DNA of 64,000 nucleotides, from positions 1,054,001-1,118,000 of the forward strand of contig JAACJM010000003.1 of NCBI GenBank assembly GCA_013368315.1. The letters run 5' to 3'. The notes under the pieces were generated by a model. The model ran no database searches and was not told where the DNA came from. It saw only the letters and a list, made by a program, of their open reading frames with translations. This document shows positions 32,659 to 41,766 of the stretch, one piece after another. Position 1 is the stretch's first letter, and every line of letters starts with the position of its first letter. Position numbers and translations under genes: made by a program. This stretch comes from Tetrapyrgos nigripes (Eukaryota > Basidiomycota > Agaricomycetes > Agaricales > Campanellaceae).

Positions 32659-32709
32659 GGGCCTAACTGGGAATTGAACCCAGGACCTCTCGCACCCAAA
32701 GCGAGAATC
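32659..32709 (-). tRNA. tRNA-Pro(UGG), 3' part of an interrupted gene
   Basis: On the minus strand this reads, 5' to 3', the last 8 nt shared with the other fragment (GATTCTCG), then the anticodon arm CTCGC-TTTGGGT-GCGAG with anticodon TGG, the variable loop, the T arm CTGGG-TTCAATT-CCCAG and the acceptor strand TTAGGCC plus discriminator C. The 5' part is missing here: upstream sequence is unrelated to a D arm or to a GGCCTAA acceptor strand. That part lies 9 kb away at 41738-41766. The fragment alone cannot fold into a functional tRNA. Confidence 0.9.
32702..32709. repeat. Left 8-bp direct repeat flanking the inserted element
   Basis: CGAGAATC, identical to 41738-41745 and in the same orientation. 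It corresponds to tRNA nucleotides 22-29 (end of D arm and first half of anticodon stem). It is read as the crossover or target-site duplication of the insertion. Confidence 0.85.
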
Positions 32710-32739
32710 TGGAGAAACTATGGATTTGGCTACGCAGCC

Positions 32740-32793
32740 AGGTCACCGTTTATCGTGACCTGCCCTGCCACAGGTCACGATCGCTGGTGACCT
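32740..32793. promoter_or_regulatory. Paired GGTCAC inverted repeats near the left element end
   Basis: Two consecutive inverted repeats have the same geometry: AGGTCAC, 8 nt, GTGACCT (32740-32761), then 10 nt, then AGGTCAC, 8 nt, GTGACCT (32772-32793). The whole block also forms a 23-nt arm/8-nt loop hairpin with five central mismatches. The position is 31 bp inside the left repeat and 112 bp upstream of the recombinase ATG. Arms with an 8-bp spacer are the layout of tyrosine-recombinase sites, but a regulatory operator for the gene is equally possible. Confidence 0.6.
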
Positions 32794-32904
32794 CTTTAGG
32801 TTCCGGCAGGCCGGTCCTATTTGCTTAGCCCGCGACCACAAACATCCGCTCTCGAGTAAAGCCAGAGTCATGAATTTCAAACACCACTCCCTTTCCTTCC
32901 AACC

Positions 32905-35900
32905 ATGTCTGGCTCACCTACGACACGCTGGCTGTTTTCCCCGACTCTAATTTCGTCTGCAAGCCGCTCAACACAGTCCTCGGGCATTTCCGAAGCTTCG
33001 GTACGCCACACTCTCACCGTCAGTTTAACATTTAGCGTTGCCGTTAACCTGGCATGCTTCTTAGACCCAAACTGTCAGCCTCAAGCCAACCACCGACGAC
33101 AACGGTAATCTGGAGACAGCAGAAGAATATGCAGCACGACTGTGAGTAATCTTCAGCTCTACCTAAATGCCCCTATACCTAATACTATTACCTAACACTA
33201 GCATCAATGTTTTCAATACTAAGAAGCTTCTGCGCGAAGTCTGCAAGAAGCTGGAGCTCCAGTCCTCTCACAACGAGAATTTAGAGGGACTGAAACTCAA
33301 AATTGTCAAGAAGTGGTTCGTGTTCTCCCTTCTAGTCTTTTTATTTTCGCTCAAGAACTTATTATACATAGGTATCCGGACTGGTTACCACCCCCACCGC
33401 TGTCGTCAAAAGCAGCTCGAAAACCACGTACAGTCAAACGGCTAGTCAACGCCTCATCAGCCTCGTCGCTTGGCAGCACTCAAAGTATACCCGCACCCGG
33501 ATTATCTCCTCAGCCACTGCAAAATCCATCCACCGACTCCACGCCCGTCCGATCAAAATCCAATTCTCGTAAACAAAAACGGAATTCCAATGCCGTTGAA
33601 TCGAGTCCAGGATCCGAGTACGCAGACGTCGATGAAGAACGCCTGCTTCAAGACCTTAGTGGCAATGTCGAGCTCACCAACGAGGATTTCCACGCTGTTC
33701 TTGGAGTCAGCCGAGATGATTCTGACAGCGAGGACGATGAAGACGGCGCAGATGATAACGGCTATACAGACGATGAAGGTGTGTGCCTTACTGGAAGATT
33801 TTTCATCATTTAATCTCTTACCCATGCTAACTACAATTTGATTACAGACTGTGATGATGAGTCTGACCACGAACGGTACCGGAAGAGGGTTCGCATTAAT
33901 GCGGACACAGCTTTCCAGGGTCATCGTAGGCTCGGCGGAAAACAAGCCCAAGCTCAGATAGTAAGATCGTTCAACGTGAGTTGTCCTTTTCTTTGTTCTC
34001 GGTAACTGTGGCTGATTATTCATACAATCTCTACAGAAATTCCTCGACGAGTCCCTGTTCGCAGGAAAAATCCTGGATCGTATTGTTGATGAGCATTCCT
34101 TGCTCCTCTTCATTGACTGGACGTTTGATCGGCCAAAACTTTCATCGCGTGGCATAGAGTTGCCAGGTACACATGTTGGTGCGGTGAGTATGTTTTAAAT
34201 CATTTTATTCTCATTTCCTGCATCGTCAAGTCTGATCCATCATCCGTTGTATTTGCTCTTAGGGACAGATCCGGAAGATGTTTTTCGGTGCGCTCCGGAT
34301 ACGCAAGTCACAAGAAGCCGAGAACCCACATCTATCGCTTACCAGACCGGCCGTCACTGTGCGTGTCTACGACCTATTGAAGACACGGATCTCTCAAGCA
34401 TGGGAACGACTACGAAAGTGAGTACTCAAGTATATCTCTGGACAACTCCAAGATCCTAAAGCATGTCCAGCGGCTCAATTGACAACATGGACATGCCCGA
34501 TATTGTTTCAAATACTTTCCTTGATAAGATCTCGGATGAGCAGATGAACGACGTCAACTGGGCTTTCCTAAAGCATCGTGAAAGTAAGGTTCGCTTGTTC
34601 TAATTAGCAATTTCGAGTCTGAAATTCTTTTTTCTAGCCCGCCGGGCAATCGTTGGACATGCCGCATGGACGTGCCAAAATGCAAGTGGTAATCGTGGTG
34701 ATGACCTCCGTGCTCTACGCCTTCGAGAGTTACAACCATGGGACACCGTTCATCCGACACAAGGCATTCCGATGAATGGTATGGTAGGCCTGCAGGGTGA
34801 ACAGAAGGTTAAGAAGCATTCCATGGTTTCGGTGCGTTCATTTGCTCATTGCTCAGTTTACCATGTCTTGACCAAGTCAACCACTTCTCAATAGGTCAAC
34901 AACCCTGTCTACACAGCTTTTATCAATCATCGTGACCCAGAGTGGTGCCCAATGGTATCTCTTGCGCTTCTCATGCACTGGTTGTTCGATGTCTATGACA
35001 TCATCACCAAGCAAAAGATTGACTGGACAGTCAATAAGAGCTGGGGTTTGGTATGCTTCAGTTCTTCATGCTTTGACTCAGATAACTGACTCACCTATTC
35101 AGATACGTCTCATCTTTGGTGACGACCCGACCGTTACATACAATCCACATAACCTCTACAACCTCTTCTCACACACATTCAAATCAGTGGGGCTAGAATC
35201 CAGAATGAAGTTACATTTGCCTCGTCATATGCTCGGATATCGTCAACAGAACATGGGGTACATTTTTCATTCCTGATATTATCCAATACCTTGACTAACA
35301 TTCGCTTACAACAGTGTTGATCCGTCTCAGACCGCAAAACTTGGATGGAATCGTCAGGGAGTCTATCAAGACATCTATGCACCCTCTATTCCTAAGACAG
35401 TCAGTACATTTTTATCGCCTGATTATAATCTCTAACTTTGCAATTATTCTTATTGGCAGGCTGTCCTGGCTGCTCATGGCTTCAGGGACTATGAGGAGTA
35501 TAGCATGCCCTGGCGTCAAGTCCATGTTCCCGACCAATTCCTAAGGTTGGTTATGCCCATGGCTGAAGGCATCCTTGCTGAGGTTCACGGAAAGGCAAAC
35601 CTTACTGGGACTGCAAACTTCTGGCGTCTTATGATATCTTTGCGCCCAATGATGCTTCAGGCAAGTCCTTGATTCGGGTTGAATTGTTTTTGGTTTATTA
35701 ATGTGTATCGGTTCTTAGGGTACTGCAGCTATGTATCAGGAGCTTCCCGAGTCTTCGATTTTTAAGCTCCCGGCGCTCAGTGATCCTGTCATTCGCAACT
35801 GGATGTCAACAACGTTCAAGACCGAATACACCATACTCAAGGCGCAGGCTGGCAGCAACATCGACCTTTCACGTATTCAAGATGCTGTTATACGCGAATC

Positions 35901-37317
35901 GATTACTGGAACAAACTCGCGCATCAGTCAAATGACAACTCAATTGACAGCTCTTTCCTCTATTCTGGATCGACGAACAGCGCACTTTTCACCTACGAAA
36001 GGTATGGGCTGGTCGACAGAGACATACTACAATCGTTGTAAGTCTTTCTCCCATATCTTTAACATTTTTTCTGATGGTATAACTCTCGCAAGATTCATCT
36101 GCGCTTCCCGGTTCTTCTTCATCGCCAGCTGCAGTGTATCTTCCTCTTCCCGAACTTCCATCCCTGACCTTGGCTCCATCAACACCGTATAATCCCTATC
36201 TCTCCCTCCCTACCCCTGATACATCAATATCACCGAGTTCGGATCCATCATTGACTCAGCTTCACCAGTCTCCCACGTCGTCGTCATTACCTCTAGCAGT
36301 AGTGGCCTCACCCCACCTCAACTCTACAACAACTCCTATGTATTCCTCTCCCACATCGTCATCATTACCTCTATCAGTAGTGACCTCACCCCACCTCAAC
36401 TCTACAGCAACCCCTATATGTTCCTCTCCGACTCTAACGCCAGCTCCGAATCCTCCTAAATTGTCAACTCTGACTCCAGCTCGTAATCAGTCAACTGGGA
36501 ATCTCGAGCTAGTACTTCCGGATCTTCCAGCATTTCTGAAGCCAGGACAGAGTGGCGAGGTGTTCCCTGCCATTTTTGGCCAACAGGTCGTTCTCTGGTC
36601 AGACGTTCTCGAGGCGATCAAGAGGCCTGAGCATGTATGGGACAAATGGGGTACAAGGGGTTTGGATCAGTATAAGACAGTTTGGGGAATTTGGGAGGCA
36701 TACAATAAGGGCGAGAAGGTTTTTAATGATGAGGGACAGCCAATCAAGGTGAAGCCTCCCTTATGTGAGGTTGAAGCAAAGTTTGGATGTACCTGGAGGG
36801 GGGGAGCAAAGGCGAGTGAAGACCAACTCATAATTTACATTCAATGACTTACAAATTGGTGTAGAAACGTAAATCTTGGGAGAGGTTTCGGGAGATTCCC
36901 ACATGGATAGAGAACCGTTTAAAGGATGGTATGACGTTGGAGGTGGTGGTCTCAAACTTGGAGAGGATGCGAACGGATGCTGTGCAGGGGAAGGGGAAGG
37001 GGAAGATGAGTTTGAACATGCTTTCAAAACACATTCACAAGCTCAACAGTACGGAAGCAGCTCGGAAAAATGCAGAGGCGGCACTAGTGACAGTGAGTAC
37101 AATCCGTCATTTCTACTTCAAGCTCTGGTGACATTGATTTCATTTTCAGCCAACATCAACTACACCACCAGGCTCGCCATCACGTCCAAGTGACGCTCCT
37201 TATGCCAACAACACCCTTGATGGATCCCTAATTGAGCCGAAGAAGAAGAAGCCTCGTGAACGCCCTGTATTTGTACGTCCTAGGGCAAAGAAGTACAAGC
37301 CTCATGTAGCTAAGTAG
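32905..37317 (+). CDS. Crypton/Ndc10-like tyrosine recombinase with GCR1_C-type DNA-binding domain
   Basis: Seventeen exons with matching phases give 1,153 aa: 32905-33000, 33065-33141, 33202-33315, 33372-33778, 33848-33975, 34037-34183, 34263-34417, 34471-34583, 34638-34831, 34895-35050, 35103-35257, 35315-35399, 35460-35660, 35719-36037, 36093-36811, 36865-37092 and 37150-37317. The putative catalytic residues lie in GNRGDDLRALRLREL (Arg432 or 437), HLPRHMLGYRQQNMG (His567-x2-Arg570) and LGWNRQGVYQDIY (Tyr598 or 602). This is the R...HxxR...Y set of tyrosine recombinases, in the context seen in Crypton and Ndc10_II proteins. The C-terminal VWGIWEAYNKG...CEVEAKFGCTWRGGAK resembles GCR1_C, the DNA-binding domain linked to these recombinases. 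Two introns use GC donors. No frameshift or stop, so the gene looks intact. AATAAA follows the stop at 37323-37328. Confidence 0.8.
36272..36427 (+). repeat. Two-copy 78-bp tandem repeat inside the recombinase gene
   Basis: Two adjacent copies with a period of 78 bp (26 codons) encode SPTSSSLPLAVVASPHLN-type Ser/Pro-rich sequence in the linker between the recombinase and GCR1_C-like domains. The copies differ at a few positions and frame is kept. Confidence 0.75.
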
Positions 37318-37971
37318 TTTTTAATAAAACCGGGCCTACGCTGTTCTATGACTCTGTACTGCGGTATGCCGCACGCGCGTTGCGTCGCGGAAGGCCAAGT
37401 TCGATTTGAGAACATGTGATTGAACGCAGATTCGGTGAGCCAGTTAGCCGGTCTGTTTGTAGCCGATTGTAATTTTGAGCGAGAGTAGTGCCCTTATATT
37501 CAGAAATTTGGGCAGAGATACATACTAGATTGAAAAGCAAAAAGCCGTGTCTCTCCTTGCTAAATTGGGCGGACGCGTACAAAGACGCGTATGTATCACA
37601 TGACCTGTCAATATCCCCCAAAAGCGAACGCAAAGTTGCTCCTACACAAGTAAATTGTCAGAGGAGCCCGATTTTTTGGCCTGATCAGATGGATATATGT
37701 TCTGCCTCTCTACAATTACAATCGGGACACTTAGCAATAGACGAGTAAAGCTAGAGTGTCATATCATTGCTGAAGTACTGTACAAGTGTTAGCGCGTACA
37801 GTCATATCTCTCTGTATCTCTCTCCGTTAAAGAATACTTGAGTCGGTACTCATTGAACACTTGATTTTCAATCTAATCTTAATTGCCTTCTTACAATAAT
37901 AACTATAATACAAGTTTACAACTTCGAGTACTAAACATTTGTTTGTTCGGAGCTAGCCTGCCGGTCTTCTT
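37318..37971. other. Interval between convergent genes of the element
   Basis: 654 bp between two 3' ends. It includes the recombinase polyadenylation signal AATAAA at 37323-37328. I see no further gene. Confidence 0.5.
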
Positions 37972-39520
37972 CTACTTCACATTCTTCTTCTGCCTCGCCT
38001 TCTTTGCCTTCTTGTGATGATTCTTAAGGAATTTGAGAAGTCCAGTCCAGCCACCAGGCTTATCAGATCTCCTTTCCAGCTCTGATACCACTTTGCTCGC
38101 CTTGAACGGACCATTTGGGCCATAGATGCTGATTAATTCTACTCCTTTTCTGGCAGCTGTGAACCACGAAGCTGGCAAATCCAAAGCCTCATGAATGTGC
38201 CACTTATTAACCTTCCAGTTCTATAAAAAAAAAAATGTTAGATCACTAGGACTCGGAGGAAGTGGTGTAGACAGAAAGATACCTACATCGACCGAAGCGC
38301 AAGTGGTCTTGGCCAGATCTTCTACACATGTGGCTCCGAAAGTCCAATAGTCCTCAATATCTGGGTTCTGGAGTTTCCGACTATTTGCGAGTTCCTTTGC
38401 AGCCGCAAATTCCTCATATCCGTCTCGACGTTTGATCTCCTCACGCAACCAGGTAAGTAATTGCTGATCCTTCTCATTCTTTGACTCGATCCTCTGTCGC
38501 TTCCGTTCAGGTGCAATCTTGCGTGCATATTCCAGCGGCTTCATCCCAGATGCATGATAATCTTCATCAAAAAGTGCTTTGGGCTCAGACGAAGTTAATT
38601 CGCCAGCTGAGACATCAAGCTAGACCAAAATTGTCAGTACTATGAATACAGCCACAATTGAAAAATCTTCACGACTTACCGCTTCTACCTTGATGGCCAA
38701 TTGATATTCGCTGTCCAGTCGCAAGTACGTGTCTGAGCCGATCGCTAATTTGAACTCAGAGGCTTCGAGGACTGCAAAAAATTCGTACAGCTCCCCTCCG
38801 AATGGGTTCTTGTTGTCTGACACTAGGACCATGAAGCGAACATTGCCTTAAAAAATCTGTGATCAGCATATAGGAAATATGTAGAGATCAATTCAAGATG
38901 CACCAAAGAACTTTGCAGTGGTATTCTGCAATGCGTTCAAAACCTCCAGAGAGTCAACTCTCAACTCTTTCTCGCCATCTCCTCCCTCCTTTTGAATGGG
39001 AACACGAACGCGCTGGCGGAGAGTGGAACTGTCCGCCATGTTATATATGTAAACCTTGATTTCCTGGAGATCGAATGCAACGTTTGCGCATATCCAATGA
39101 AAATAGCAAGTTTAAAGTAATAACGGCTCACCTCCAGCTCTATTGAGTGTGATTCTTCGATGCCTGAAAGATCTCCTGGTGTCTCAACACGTTTGCCTTG
39201 TATGGCTTGCGTCAATTCGCGTTCTGGGGTTTGAGAAAGCGAGGATAATTGGGAACCGCTGAGAGAGCGATTCGAATCAGGTACTGGAGTTGCGTCCTTT
39301 AGAAAAGGACTATCGTCTGCGAGTATCCTCTCCTTGATCTTCGCTGCACTGGGCCTGTGTCTGTCAAAATGAGGCCACAGTTGCTTCTGAGCTTTGACTA
39401 TCTTCACTAGTTCAGCCCTTGGTAGGTCCCTGTTTACGAACAGCTTGTCAGTCTGCAAGTACTAGAATAGACAATATTAACCTACTCCAAGTCTGCAGCA
39501 GTGTACTTTCGCTTGAGCAT
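37972..39520 (-). CDS. Unknown nuclear-type protein carried by the inserted element
   Basis: Six exons: 39520-39486, 39429-39132, 39063-38904, 38846-38680, 38619-38287 and 38220-37972, giving 413 aa. The N-terminus is MLKRKYTAADLEDLPRAELV, with a helix reaching LWPHFDRHRPSAAKIKER. The middle has an apparent globular core, FMVLVSDNKNPFGGELYEFF. A basic APERKRQRIESK motif looks like a nuclear localisation signal. The C-terminal domain reads NWKVNKWHIHEALDLPASWF and ends in KKAKKARQKKNVK. I recognise no family. It converges on the recombinase gene, and its promoter side faces the repeat arrays. It could be an accessory factor of the element (DNA binding, target choice) or cargo. Intron phases are clean and there are no stops. 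Confidence 0.7.
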
Positions 39521-39799
39521 GCTTTTGGTCACTGGGATATTGTTGGGAGCGTAGAGTAAAGCCCGTAGATGATGGTGGTTGAGGTGAAACAGCGGAGCGG
39601 GTGAAAACACAACGATCGAATGGACATGTGCAGCCTTCGAAAACTTGCTATGGAAGACTTTGAACAGTTCGATCGAAGAATTACTTCAATATTCTACTGA
39701 AGTCTAGAGTAAAAACAGTCTGGAATGATTACTTACTAAAAGATAGGAAGATACCTACCCAGCTAACATGCGATCAAGTCTCTTATGCTACCAAAACCA

Positions 39800-40500
39800 A
39801 ATGGCTAAGTCCTGAATAAGCACAGTGGGGTCAGTGAGGTCAAAATTCGTTCTGATAGTCAGGTACGTACCTAATCAGTCTGGCAAAATCAATTCTGAGC
39901 CGCGAAACGGCACAGTAGCGTCAGTACGATATCAAGCCCATATATGGCAGCGAGTGCGCACCTCCAAAGCGTCTTGCATAATCATTCCTTAGTAGTAAGT
40001 CCTGAATCAGCGCGGTAGCGTCAGTGAGCTCAAACTCAGTTCTGGCAGTGAGGTACCTACCCAAACAGTCCTGCGAAATTCTGAATCAAGCACAGCGGCT
40101 CCAGTAAGGTCAAACTCAATTGTGGCGTCCAGGTACACTCCTGCAAAGTTGTTCCTGAGTCAAAAAAATGAGCAACGGTCGAAAATGTTCAATCAAACAA
40201 AAAAAGTCTTCCACAGAAAAATATCAACCCTCCAATAATCTTCAACGAAACAGTATCATGCCTTCAACAGAATTTTTTCAATACTCACCTGAGAGAATCT
40301 TTGATGAAACATTTGATATCTTCATTAGAATGCTCTCAAGACTTACTTTTGACTTACCGCTTCAATGAAGAATTCTCTAAGCCCTGCGAAATGCTTCCTG
40401 AGTCCTGAATCAGTACAGCGGCACCCGCAGGGTCAAGCTCGATTCTGGCATCAAGGTACGCACCCTAAGAGCCCTGCAAAATTATTCCCTAGTCAGAAAA
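39800..40500. repeat. Degenerate tandem array of 80-110-bp units
   Basis: About five imperfect copies share CTGAATCAGCACAGCGG, then GTCAGTGAGGTCAAACTC, GTTCTGGCAGT and AGGTACNTACCC. They start near 39812, 39893, 40003, 40082 and 40405; the last copy is separated by a block of the second repeat type. On the minus strand this is upstream of the 413-aa gene. Confidence 0.65.
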
Positions 40501-41000
40501 ATGCGTAAGTGTGAGCTACAATTCTAAAATGTTTAATTTGAATATCTTCCATAGAACTCAAAGAATCTTCAATGAAACACGGTCATACCTTCAGTAGAAT
40601 GTATTCAAAGACTTATTGTAAAGAATCTACAATGAAAGAGTATCATACCTTCAGTAGAATGTTTTCAAGCCTTACCTTGAAGGATCTTCTGTGGAACACT
40701 CACCTCGAACAATCTTCTATGAAACGGTCTTATGCCTTCAATAGAACATTTTCAAGATTACAGTAGAATGTTTTCATACCTTGAAGGATCTTCTATGGAA
40801 CACTCACCTCGAACAATCTTCTATGAAACAGTCATATGCCTTCAATAGAACATTTTCAAGACTTACCTAGAAGGATCTTCTATGAAACAGTATCATACCT
40901 TCAGTAGAACGTTTTCAAGACTACCTCAAGGGATCTTCGATAAAACATTCTATTGAAGGTATACCTTCAATAGAATGTTTTCCCAAGCAGCTCGTAATCT
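40160..41000. repeat. Degenerate tandem array of about 55-60-bp units
   Basis: At least seven imperfect copies combine GAAGGATCTTCTATGAAACA, GTATCATACCTTCAGTAGAA and TGTTTTCAAGACTTACCT. The first motif is itself palindromic around GAAGGATCTTC. Read on the minus strand, most units contain AGGTAAGT or AGGTGAGT, a good 5' splice site. Confidence 0.7.
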
Positions 41001-41400
41001 TCAATGAAACACTCGGTTTCATGAAGAGCCACTCGACACTCGACTGTTGAGGTAGATCGGCAAAGGAGCACGTAGCCTCAACATACCCTGACTTTTCCAT
41101 CTCACGACTGAAGGATCTAAGCACCTAAATGGACCAGCAAAGCAAAGCGTATATTCAAAGTAGTAGTAAAAAATAATGGGACAAAGATCAAAACATACAG
41201 ACCCGGGGCTTCAATTTCATTCCCTGTAATCTTTCATTCCCTCCCCTACCTACCAGGCCACCGTCACGGCGGGTGAGACAGTCATTCGGAGCAGTAATAC
41301 AAACCTACAGAGCGGGGGGAGATCAGATCAGATCGTCAGCACAATCACTACTAGACTAGGCCACCTCGATCCAGTACCTACCCCCTACACCGTTCTTTGT
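41001..41400. other. Non-coding part of the element between repeat array and GC-rich end
   Basis: No open frame with protein-like sequence. Local inverted motifs CACCGTCACGGCGGGTGAG near 41262. I see no other structure. Confidence 0.45.
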
Positions 41401-41737
41401 CGTTGCTGGGGGTGTGGACCGTTCTCGTCCGGGCGCGGGTTTCAGGGAGAGAAGGGACTCAAGTTCAGTTGAAAAGAAGGAGAAAAGAAAAAAAGTTCGG
41501 TAGAAGAGACTGAAAAAGCTTCCACTGAAGACCAACCCAGAGAGGCGGACGACGACCGTCTCCCGCGGGGAGGGGACCGATCGCCCAGTCTCGAGTCCAG
41601 AGGGCGCGGGTGGGGGGTCCAGAGACTCCCGGGAGTCAGGTGGTCAGGTGACGGAATGACGCCATCGGTCTCTTGCCGATCGCCGGCTGCCGCCGCGCGC
41701 GGGTGACCCAGGTCGCGGCAGGTCACCCCAGCCCCCC
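41401..41737. other. GC-rich right end of the element
   Basis: Composition jumps to strongly GC- and CpG-rich, with G runs and CGCGCG-type tracts, unlike the rest of the window. It ends at the C-run beside the right direct repeat. An open minus frame (41747-41442) reads low-complexity Pro/Arg/Ser and is not called a gene. Confidence 0.6.
41701..41728. promoter_or_regulatory. GGGTGACC/GGTCACCC inverted repeat near the right element end
   Basis: GGGTGACC (41701-41708), 12 nt, GGTCACCC (41721-41728), ending 9 bp inside the right direct repeat. The core GGTCAC matches the palindromes at the left end, as expected if the same protein binds both ends. Confidence 0.55.
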
Positions 41738-41745
41738 CGAGAATC
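41738..41745. repeat. Right 8-bp direct repeat flanking the inserted element
   Basis: CGAGAATC, the second copy of 32702-32709, in the same orientation, at the broken end of the tRNA 5' part. Confidence 0.85.
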
Positions 41746-41766
41746 ATGCTACTAGACCATTAGGCC
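41738..41766 (-). tRNA. tRNA-Pro(UGG), 5' part of the interrupted gene
   Basis: On the minus strand this reads GGCCTAA (acceptor 5' strand), TG, then the D arm GTCTAGTAGCATGAT and the first half of the anticodon stem, ending in GATTCTCG. It continues into the element instead of the anticodon loop. GGCCTAA is fully complementary to TTAGGCC of the fragment at 32659-32709. The D loop reads AGTAGCAT where most tRNAs have a GG pair (AGTGGTAT), so this half may already be drifting. Confidence 0.88.

Follow-up and report, generated by a model that had tools for sequence, protein, structure and literature searches.

A proline tRNA gene, tRNA-Pro(UGG), of the agaric Tetrapyrgos nigripes is split by an insert of about 9 kb that is bounded by an 8-bp direct repeat and carries a tyrosine recombinase gene. 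The insert lies in the 64,000-nucleotide window that we analyzed, part of contig C3 (C3, C7, C78, and similar names denote contigs of the T. nigripes assembly, which comprises 98.5 Mb in 587 contigs). It is probably an element of the CryptonF type that integrated site specifically into the anticodon stem of the tRNA gene. The positions of its parts are listed in Table 1.

When positions 32710 to 41745 were removed, ARAGORN called a 72-nucleotide tRNA-Pro(tgg) whose 7-bp acceptor stem (GGCCTAA/TTAGGCC) is paired. An earlier note on this DNA had claimed that the gene was interrupted by a 9-kb insert with an 8-bp repeat and that this deletion would yield a 72-nucleotide tRNA with a perfect acceptor stem, and both claims hold. 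There was no ARAGORN call for either flank taken alone, and the unjoined window gave neither ARAGORN tRNA calls nor Rfam matches at gathering thresholds. The tRNA halves are not coincidental, because the rejoined 72-mer has, along its whole length, 93% identity with a tRNA-Pro(TGG) gene on C7 that is intact and lacks an intron. A genome search with the 72-mer returned seven matches: the window's own 3' part and loci on C7, C40, C550, C23, C105, and C73. The tRNA-Pro(TGG) genes on C40, C550, and C23 are intact, each with a 20- to 21-nucleotide intron. The 8-base core, which reads GATTCTCG on the tRNA strand and occupies the 5' side of the anticodon stem, is present in all four TGG genes among the five proline tRNA genes read and is absent from the AGG gene at C78:212361. 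The match at C105:77479-77540 is a degenerate copy of tRNA-Pro that lacks an internal stretch after the anticodon region.

Because both tips of the element recur at other loci, its boundaries are supported, at the level of sequence, independently of the tRNA. On C78 and C164 the left tip (TGGAGAAAC..., then CAGGTCAC) can be recognized, and a locus on C19 has it from the CAGGTCAC block inward. The right end is matched on C94 and C254 through base 41736, one base short of the gap between element and core at 41737. A pattern for the right end matched the genome three times (the window, C94, and C254; none with the reversed control). The left-tip pattern gave seven matches (one with the reversed control) and missed the tip on C164; its matches on C1, C61, and C102, with three mismatches each, were judged by eye to be due to chance. 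Short 8-bp direct repeats stand at the element ends in place of long terminal inverted repeats. None of the 25 inverted pairs found links the two tips themselves, the only such link being a subterminal pair (I9), 75% complementary. The motif GGTCAC/GTGACC occurs nine times in the element, and six of these copies fall within its two terminal 150-nucleotide stretches, a number reached in none of 5,000 mononucleotide shuffles of those stretches.

The recombinase, or captain, gene is the first gene of the element and points inward, as the earlier note had stated for this basidiomycete; the gene model bears this out. Our model of the captain is 96% identical over 1,137 columns to the T. nigripes protein P0001, the differences being gene-model gaps. 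A Pfam scan at E <= 1 returned NDC10_II (5e-14), GCR1_C (0.049, below the Pfam cut-off), and Nucleo_P87; DUF3435 had no match in the same scan. At this threshold, GCR1_C was also found in 15 of 22 aligned relatives of the captain. An AlphaFold model of the captain shows an Ndc10/Xer/Cre/Flp-like fold, and the alignment conserves the residues R-K-H-R-W-Y, which on our reading would be the tyrosine-recombinase catalytic set. All 63 captain relatives that were found come from mushroom-forming fungi. Of the pattern matches in prokaryotic genome contigs (20) and viral contigs (23), none was upheld by tblastn. The captain core had no sequence match in PDB at E <= 1, and the only PDB match of the captain alignment was nucleophosmin, through an acidic stretch (E 0.4). 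A further NDC10_II match in the genome is located on C159.

Whether the tRNA site was chosen by the element was examined at the junctions of its relatives. The element on C78 (ca. 245432 to 257149) is a decayed relative in which the captain is followed by a convergent second gene, as in the window. Its left flank is a 233-nucleotide repeat, 94% identical to copies on C232 and C106 and 85 to 91% identical to copies on C120 and C63, and all four copies run on uninterrupted where C78 carries the element. By eye, the repeat copies bear tRNA-like A-box and B-box sequences; ARAGORN called no tRNA in them. When aligned with tRNA-Pro, the C78 junction falls 5 to 6 nucleotides from the window junction, between the two boxes. 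The orientation is also that of the window, the captain lying toward the B-box part. Rejoining the C78 flanks produced an ARAGORN tRNA in none of 5,280 joins, because the right flank is a different, multicopy repeat. With its tRNA-like boxes, the repeat on C232, C106, C63, and C120 is possibly a short interspersed nuclear element.

In a box scan of 481 nucleotides at the left tip on C164, one B-box-like 9-mer, GATCAAATC, was found 87 nucleotides from the tip on the expected strand, but it was given no weight because about 0.1 such matches would be expected by chance in that length. The flank at this locus (C164:155520-156000) contains a 20- to 21-nucleotide sequence, AGGTCACAGGG(G)TAAAGAACC, twice, 139 nucleotides apart. 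The duplicated sequence ends beside the tip in AAAGAACC, which shares five of eight bases with CGAGAATC, and is possibly the remnant of a second tip or of a tandem insertion. A B-box scan of C338a, C338b, C152, C78, C2, C94, and C254 gave 14 matches, none convincing by eye; because its strict pattern missed the B box in C78's own left flank, the scan is weak evidence of absence. An Rfam search of nine loci gave no matches. The tally is thus a single complete tRNA site, a partial one that is tRNA-like, one that is apparently different, and two that are uninformative.

Several observations weigh against site-specific integration by a CryptonF-type element. The window provides the only complete junction pair. 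The right flank of C78 has 38 further matches in the genome, so that the direct repeat of that element is uncheckable. The left tip on C164 is intact, and the 159 nucleotides of flank read there give no ARAGORN tRNA; the left tip on C19 is, by eye, about 18 nucleotides short and lies within a retroelement-like repeat; and the right tips on C94 and C254 adjoin sequence other than tRNA-Pro. As to the enzyme, the captain's GCR1_C match is below the cut-off, and its AlphaFold model is only moderate, with a mean predicted local distance difference test (pLDDT) score of 60. The junctions on C164, C19, and C94/C254, none of them recognizably tRNA, are what would be expected if an ordinary CryptonF-type element of low target selectivity had come to lie in a tRNA gene fortuitously. 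Fungal Cryptons have terminal direct repeats of 4 to 6 bp, mostly 6 bp, and the paper that describes them (Kojima and Jurka 2011, PMC3212892) makes no use of the word tRNA in its main text; both points also favor a chance landing. However, tRNA genes make up a tiny share of 98 Mb, so that random insertion into one should be rare, and the junction on C78 has the same orientation and lies 5 to 6 nucleotides from the equivalent spot in a tRNA-like repeat. We therefore regard a chance landing as unlikely, though a serious contender. Of the earlier note's interpretation, the splitting of a nuclear tRNA-Pro gene by a tyrosine-recombinase element is supported. Its proposal of targeting to the tRNA anticodon arm, taken as a rule, has in its favor the complete site in the window and the left junction on C78 in tRNA-like sequence, and against it the C164 flank. 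The note had suggested a search of the genome for copies flanked by parts of tRNA-Pro; the loci read have the tRNA-like repeat to the left of the C78 element and no recognizable tRNA at C164, C19, and C94/C254. Captains with differing cores would explain the mixture of sites, as chance might.

Other explanations depart further from site-specific integration. Starships, which are found mostly in ascomycetes, have at one end a DUF3435 captain that is the first gene and points into the element. The captain-first, inward layout and the direct repeat of the window element resemble this arrangement, and the earlier note had seen kinship with them. Starships have also been reported in a basidiomycete, Tremella fuciformis, in sizes of 42 to 606 kb (PMC13066641). 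Yet the window element is far smaller, at about 9 kb with two genes, and its captain matches NDC10_II and, at E <= 1, not DUF3435. On this Pfam result the kinship was rejected in favor of a CryptonF-type element, and a Starship or Starship-like giant element appears highly improbable. That an assembly join or a rearrangement placed two tRNA halves at the element ends is scarcely plausible, given the perfect 8-bp repeat, the complete tRNA that results from joining, the base-level matches of both tips to other loci, and the location of the locus inside a contig of more than 1.1 Mb. Least credible is a functional split or trans-spliced tRNA with the insert as an intron-like spacer: the break lies within the anticodon stem, whereas the paralogues with introns have them at position 37/38, the insert has genes of its own, and intact tRNA-Pro(TGG) copies exist.

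CryptonF transposons, reportedly described by Goodwin in 2003, share with the window element its nature as a fungal DNA element with an Ndc10-related tyrosine recombinase, short direct end repeats, and no long terminal repeats. Their combination of a tyrosine recombinase with GCR1_C (Kojima and Jurka 2011, PMC3212892) is matched by the GCR1_C seen in the captain's relatives. The window element differs from them in its 8-bp repeat, its length of 9 kb, its second gene, the clustering of motifs at its ends, and its position in a tRNA gene. Closest in behavior is Dada, a group of DDE transposons of fish tRNA genes that produce 6- to 7-bp target duplications and insert close to the anticodon or A box, those at the anticodon being oriented opposite to the tRNA (PMC8869645). 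The window element is likewise inserted inside a tRNA gene, in the anticodon arm and opposite to the tRNA, but the enzymes are unrelated; its captain has NDC10_II, and a Pfam scan of its two genes showed no DDE transposase. Some CryptonV families also have a fixed target within the Crypton lineage, although that target is microsatellites and the hosts are cnidarians (PMC8869645). Endogenous nimaviruses have tyrosine recombinases as well, with telomere repeats or 28S rDNA as the sites (PMC10871703), and cryptophyte Polinton-like viruses encode tyrosine recombinases, with no tRNA genes found near the insertions by the authors (PMC12220804). Among the matches listed in a search of titles and abstract openings of the open-access literature, no description of a Crypton in a tRNA gene was found. 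To our knowledge, few DNA transposons strictly target multicopy RNA genes, and in the papers cited here those that target tRNA genes, Dada, have DDE enzymes (PMC8869645). Integrative elements and prophages of bacteria that occupy tRNA genes also use a tyrosine recombinase and a short identical core and usually restore the 3' end of the tRNA, whereas the tRNA is broken here. Such an arrangement, well known in bacteria, was not to be expected of a Crypton-type fungal transposon.

The captain may bind the GGTCAC/GTGACC arrays at both tips and release the element as a circle via the 8-bp core. A circle bearing GATTCTCG (tRNA-strand reading) would then insert, by conservative tyrosine recombination, into the matching 8 bp of tRNA-Pro(UGG), and the insertion would break that copy of the gene. 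Loss of one copy would be tolerable because other tRNA-Pro(UGG) genes persist. A broader possibility, which we put forward tentatively, is that mushroom-forming fungi harbor a lineage of two-gene Crypton-type elements that use RNA polymerase III genes, whether of tRNAs or of repeats derived from tRNAs, as attachment sites and enter them between the A and B boxes with a uniform orientation. Such a lineage would be a eukaryotic counterpart, separate from Dada, of bacterial tRNA-targeting integrative elements, with some captains, such as that on C164, drifting to other cores. If this were true, the bacterial tRNA-gene strategy would have arisen anew in a eukaryotic transposon family, and fungi would contain a natural, testable site-specific recombination system with a defined 8-bp tRNA core. 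The 63 captain relatives make the tRNA-target claim quick to test.

The window copy would appear from its sequence to be young. Its captain is the only copy seen that matches end to end without decay. The 36 captain matches in the genome are distributed over C3 (15), C19 (8), C78 (8), C164 (2), C183 (2), and C138 (1). Ten of the 15 matching pieces in the window are stop free and the other five extend into introns of the model. Stops are present in five of eight pieces on C19 and six of eight on C78; some of these pieces possibly include introns, and the C78 alignments have stops within conserved exon sequence. The matches on C164 and C183 are stop free and confined to two N-terminal stretches. 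The element and the host flanks have CpG observed/expected ratios of 0.82 and 0.83, respectively, against 0.27 on both C78 and C94. The left 891 nucleotides of the element match only themselves in the genome. C94 and C254, which share two blocks, one of 6.4 and one of 3.6 kb (about 10 kb in all), at 96 to 97% identity, are probably uncollapsed haplotype copies of a single locus and were counted as one.

Table 1. Features of the split tRNA-Pro(UGG) gene and of the inserted element (window positions)
Feature	Position	Strand	Basis
3' part of tRNA-Pro(UGG), 51 nucleotides, including one copy of the 8-bp core	32659..32709	-	Joining with 41746-41766 gives ARAGORN tRNA-Pro(tgg)
Left 8-bp direct repeat CGAGAATC, putative crossover core	32702..32709	+	Sequence reading
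Inserted element without core copies, ~9.03 kb	32710..41737	+	Left tip aligns with C78 and C164; right homology with C94/C254
Four GGTCAC/GTGACC motifs arrayed at the left end, putative binding sites of the recombinase	32740..32793	.	Motif count
Recombinase (captain) gene, ~17 exons, ~1,130 amino acids	32905..37317	+	Gene model near-identical to P0001
Second gene, ~405-413 amino acids, convergent with captain	37972..39520	-	Gene model; relatives at other loci
Repeat region, degenerate array of TTCARTAGAA-type motifs and 40-nucleotide perfect palindrome (40942-40981)	39692..41012	.	
Right-end GGTCAC/GTGACC motifs	41702..41727	.	Motif count and genome pattern search
Right 8-bp direct repeat CGAGAATC	41738..41745	+	Sequence reading
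5' part of tRNA-Pro(UGG), 29 nucleotides, including the other core copy	41738..41766	-	Sequence reading and ARAGORN join

The second gene might encode an accessory factor, but this is a guess. Its protein (P0064) has no Pfam family at E <= 0.01, with Tlp below the cut-off at E 0.12, and its AlphaFold model is of low confidence (mean pLDDT, 47). When the 7,996 public proteins sharing the most words with it were scored, the one match at E <= 0.001 was T. nigripes' own record. Two copies of the second gene lie about 42 kb apart on C338 (6290-7759 and 48004-49370), with no captain match in the stretches examined or elsewhere on that contig. The split tRNA gene itself has UPF1, identified by its UPF1_1B and zinc-binding domains in Pfam, on the minus strand on one side and a 5'-nucleotidase gene on the plus strand on the other. 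All eight TTCARTAGAA-type motifs in the window fall inside the element, and arrays of this motif are also present on C94 and C338.

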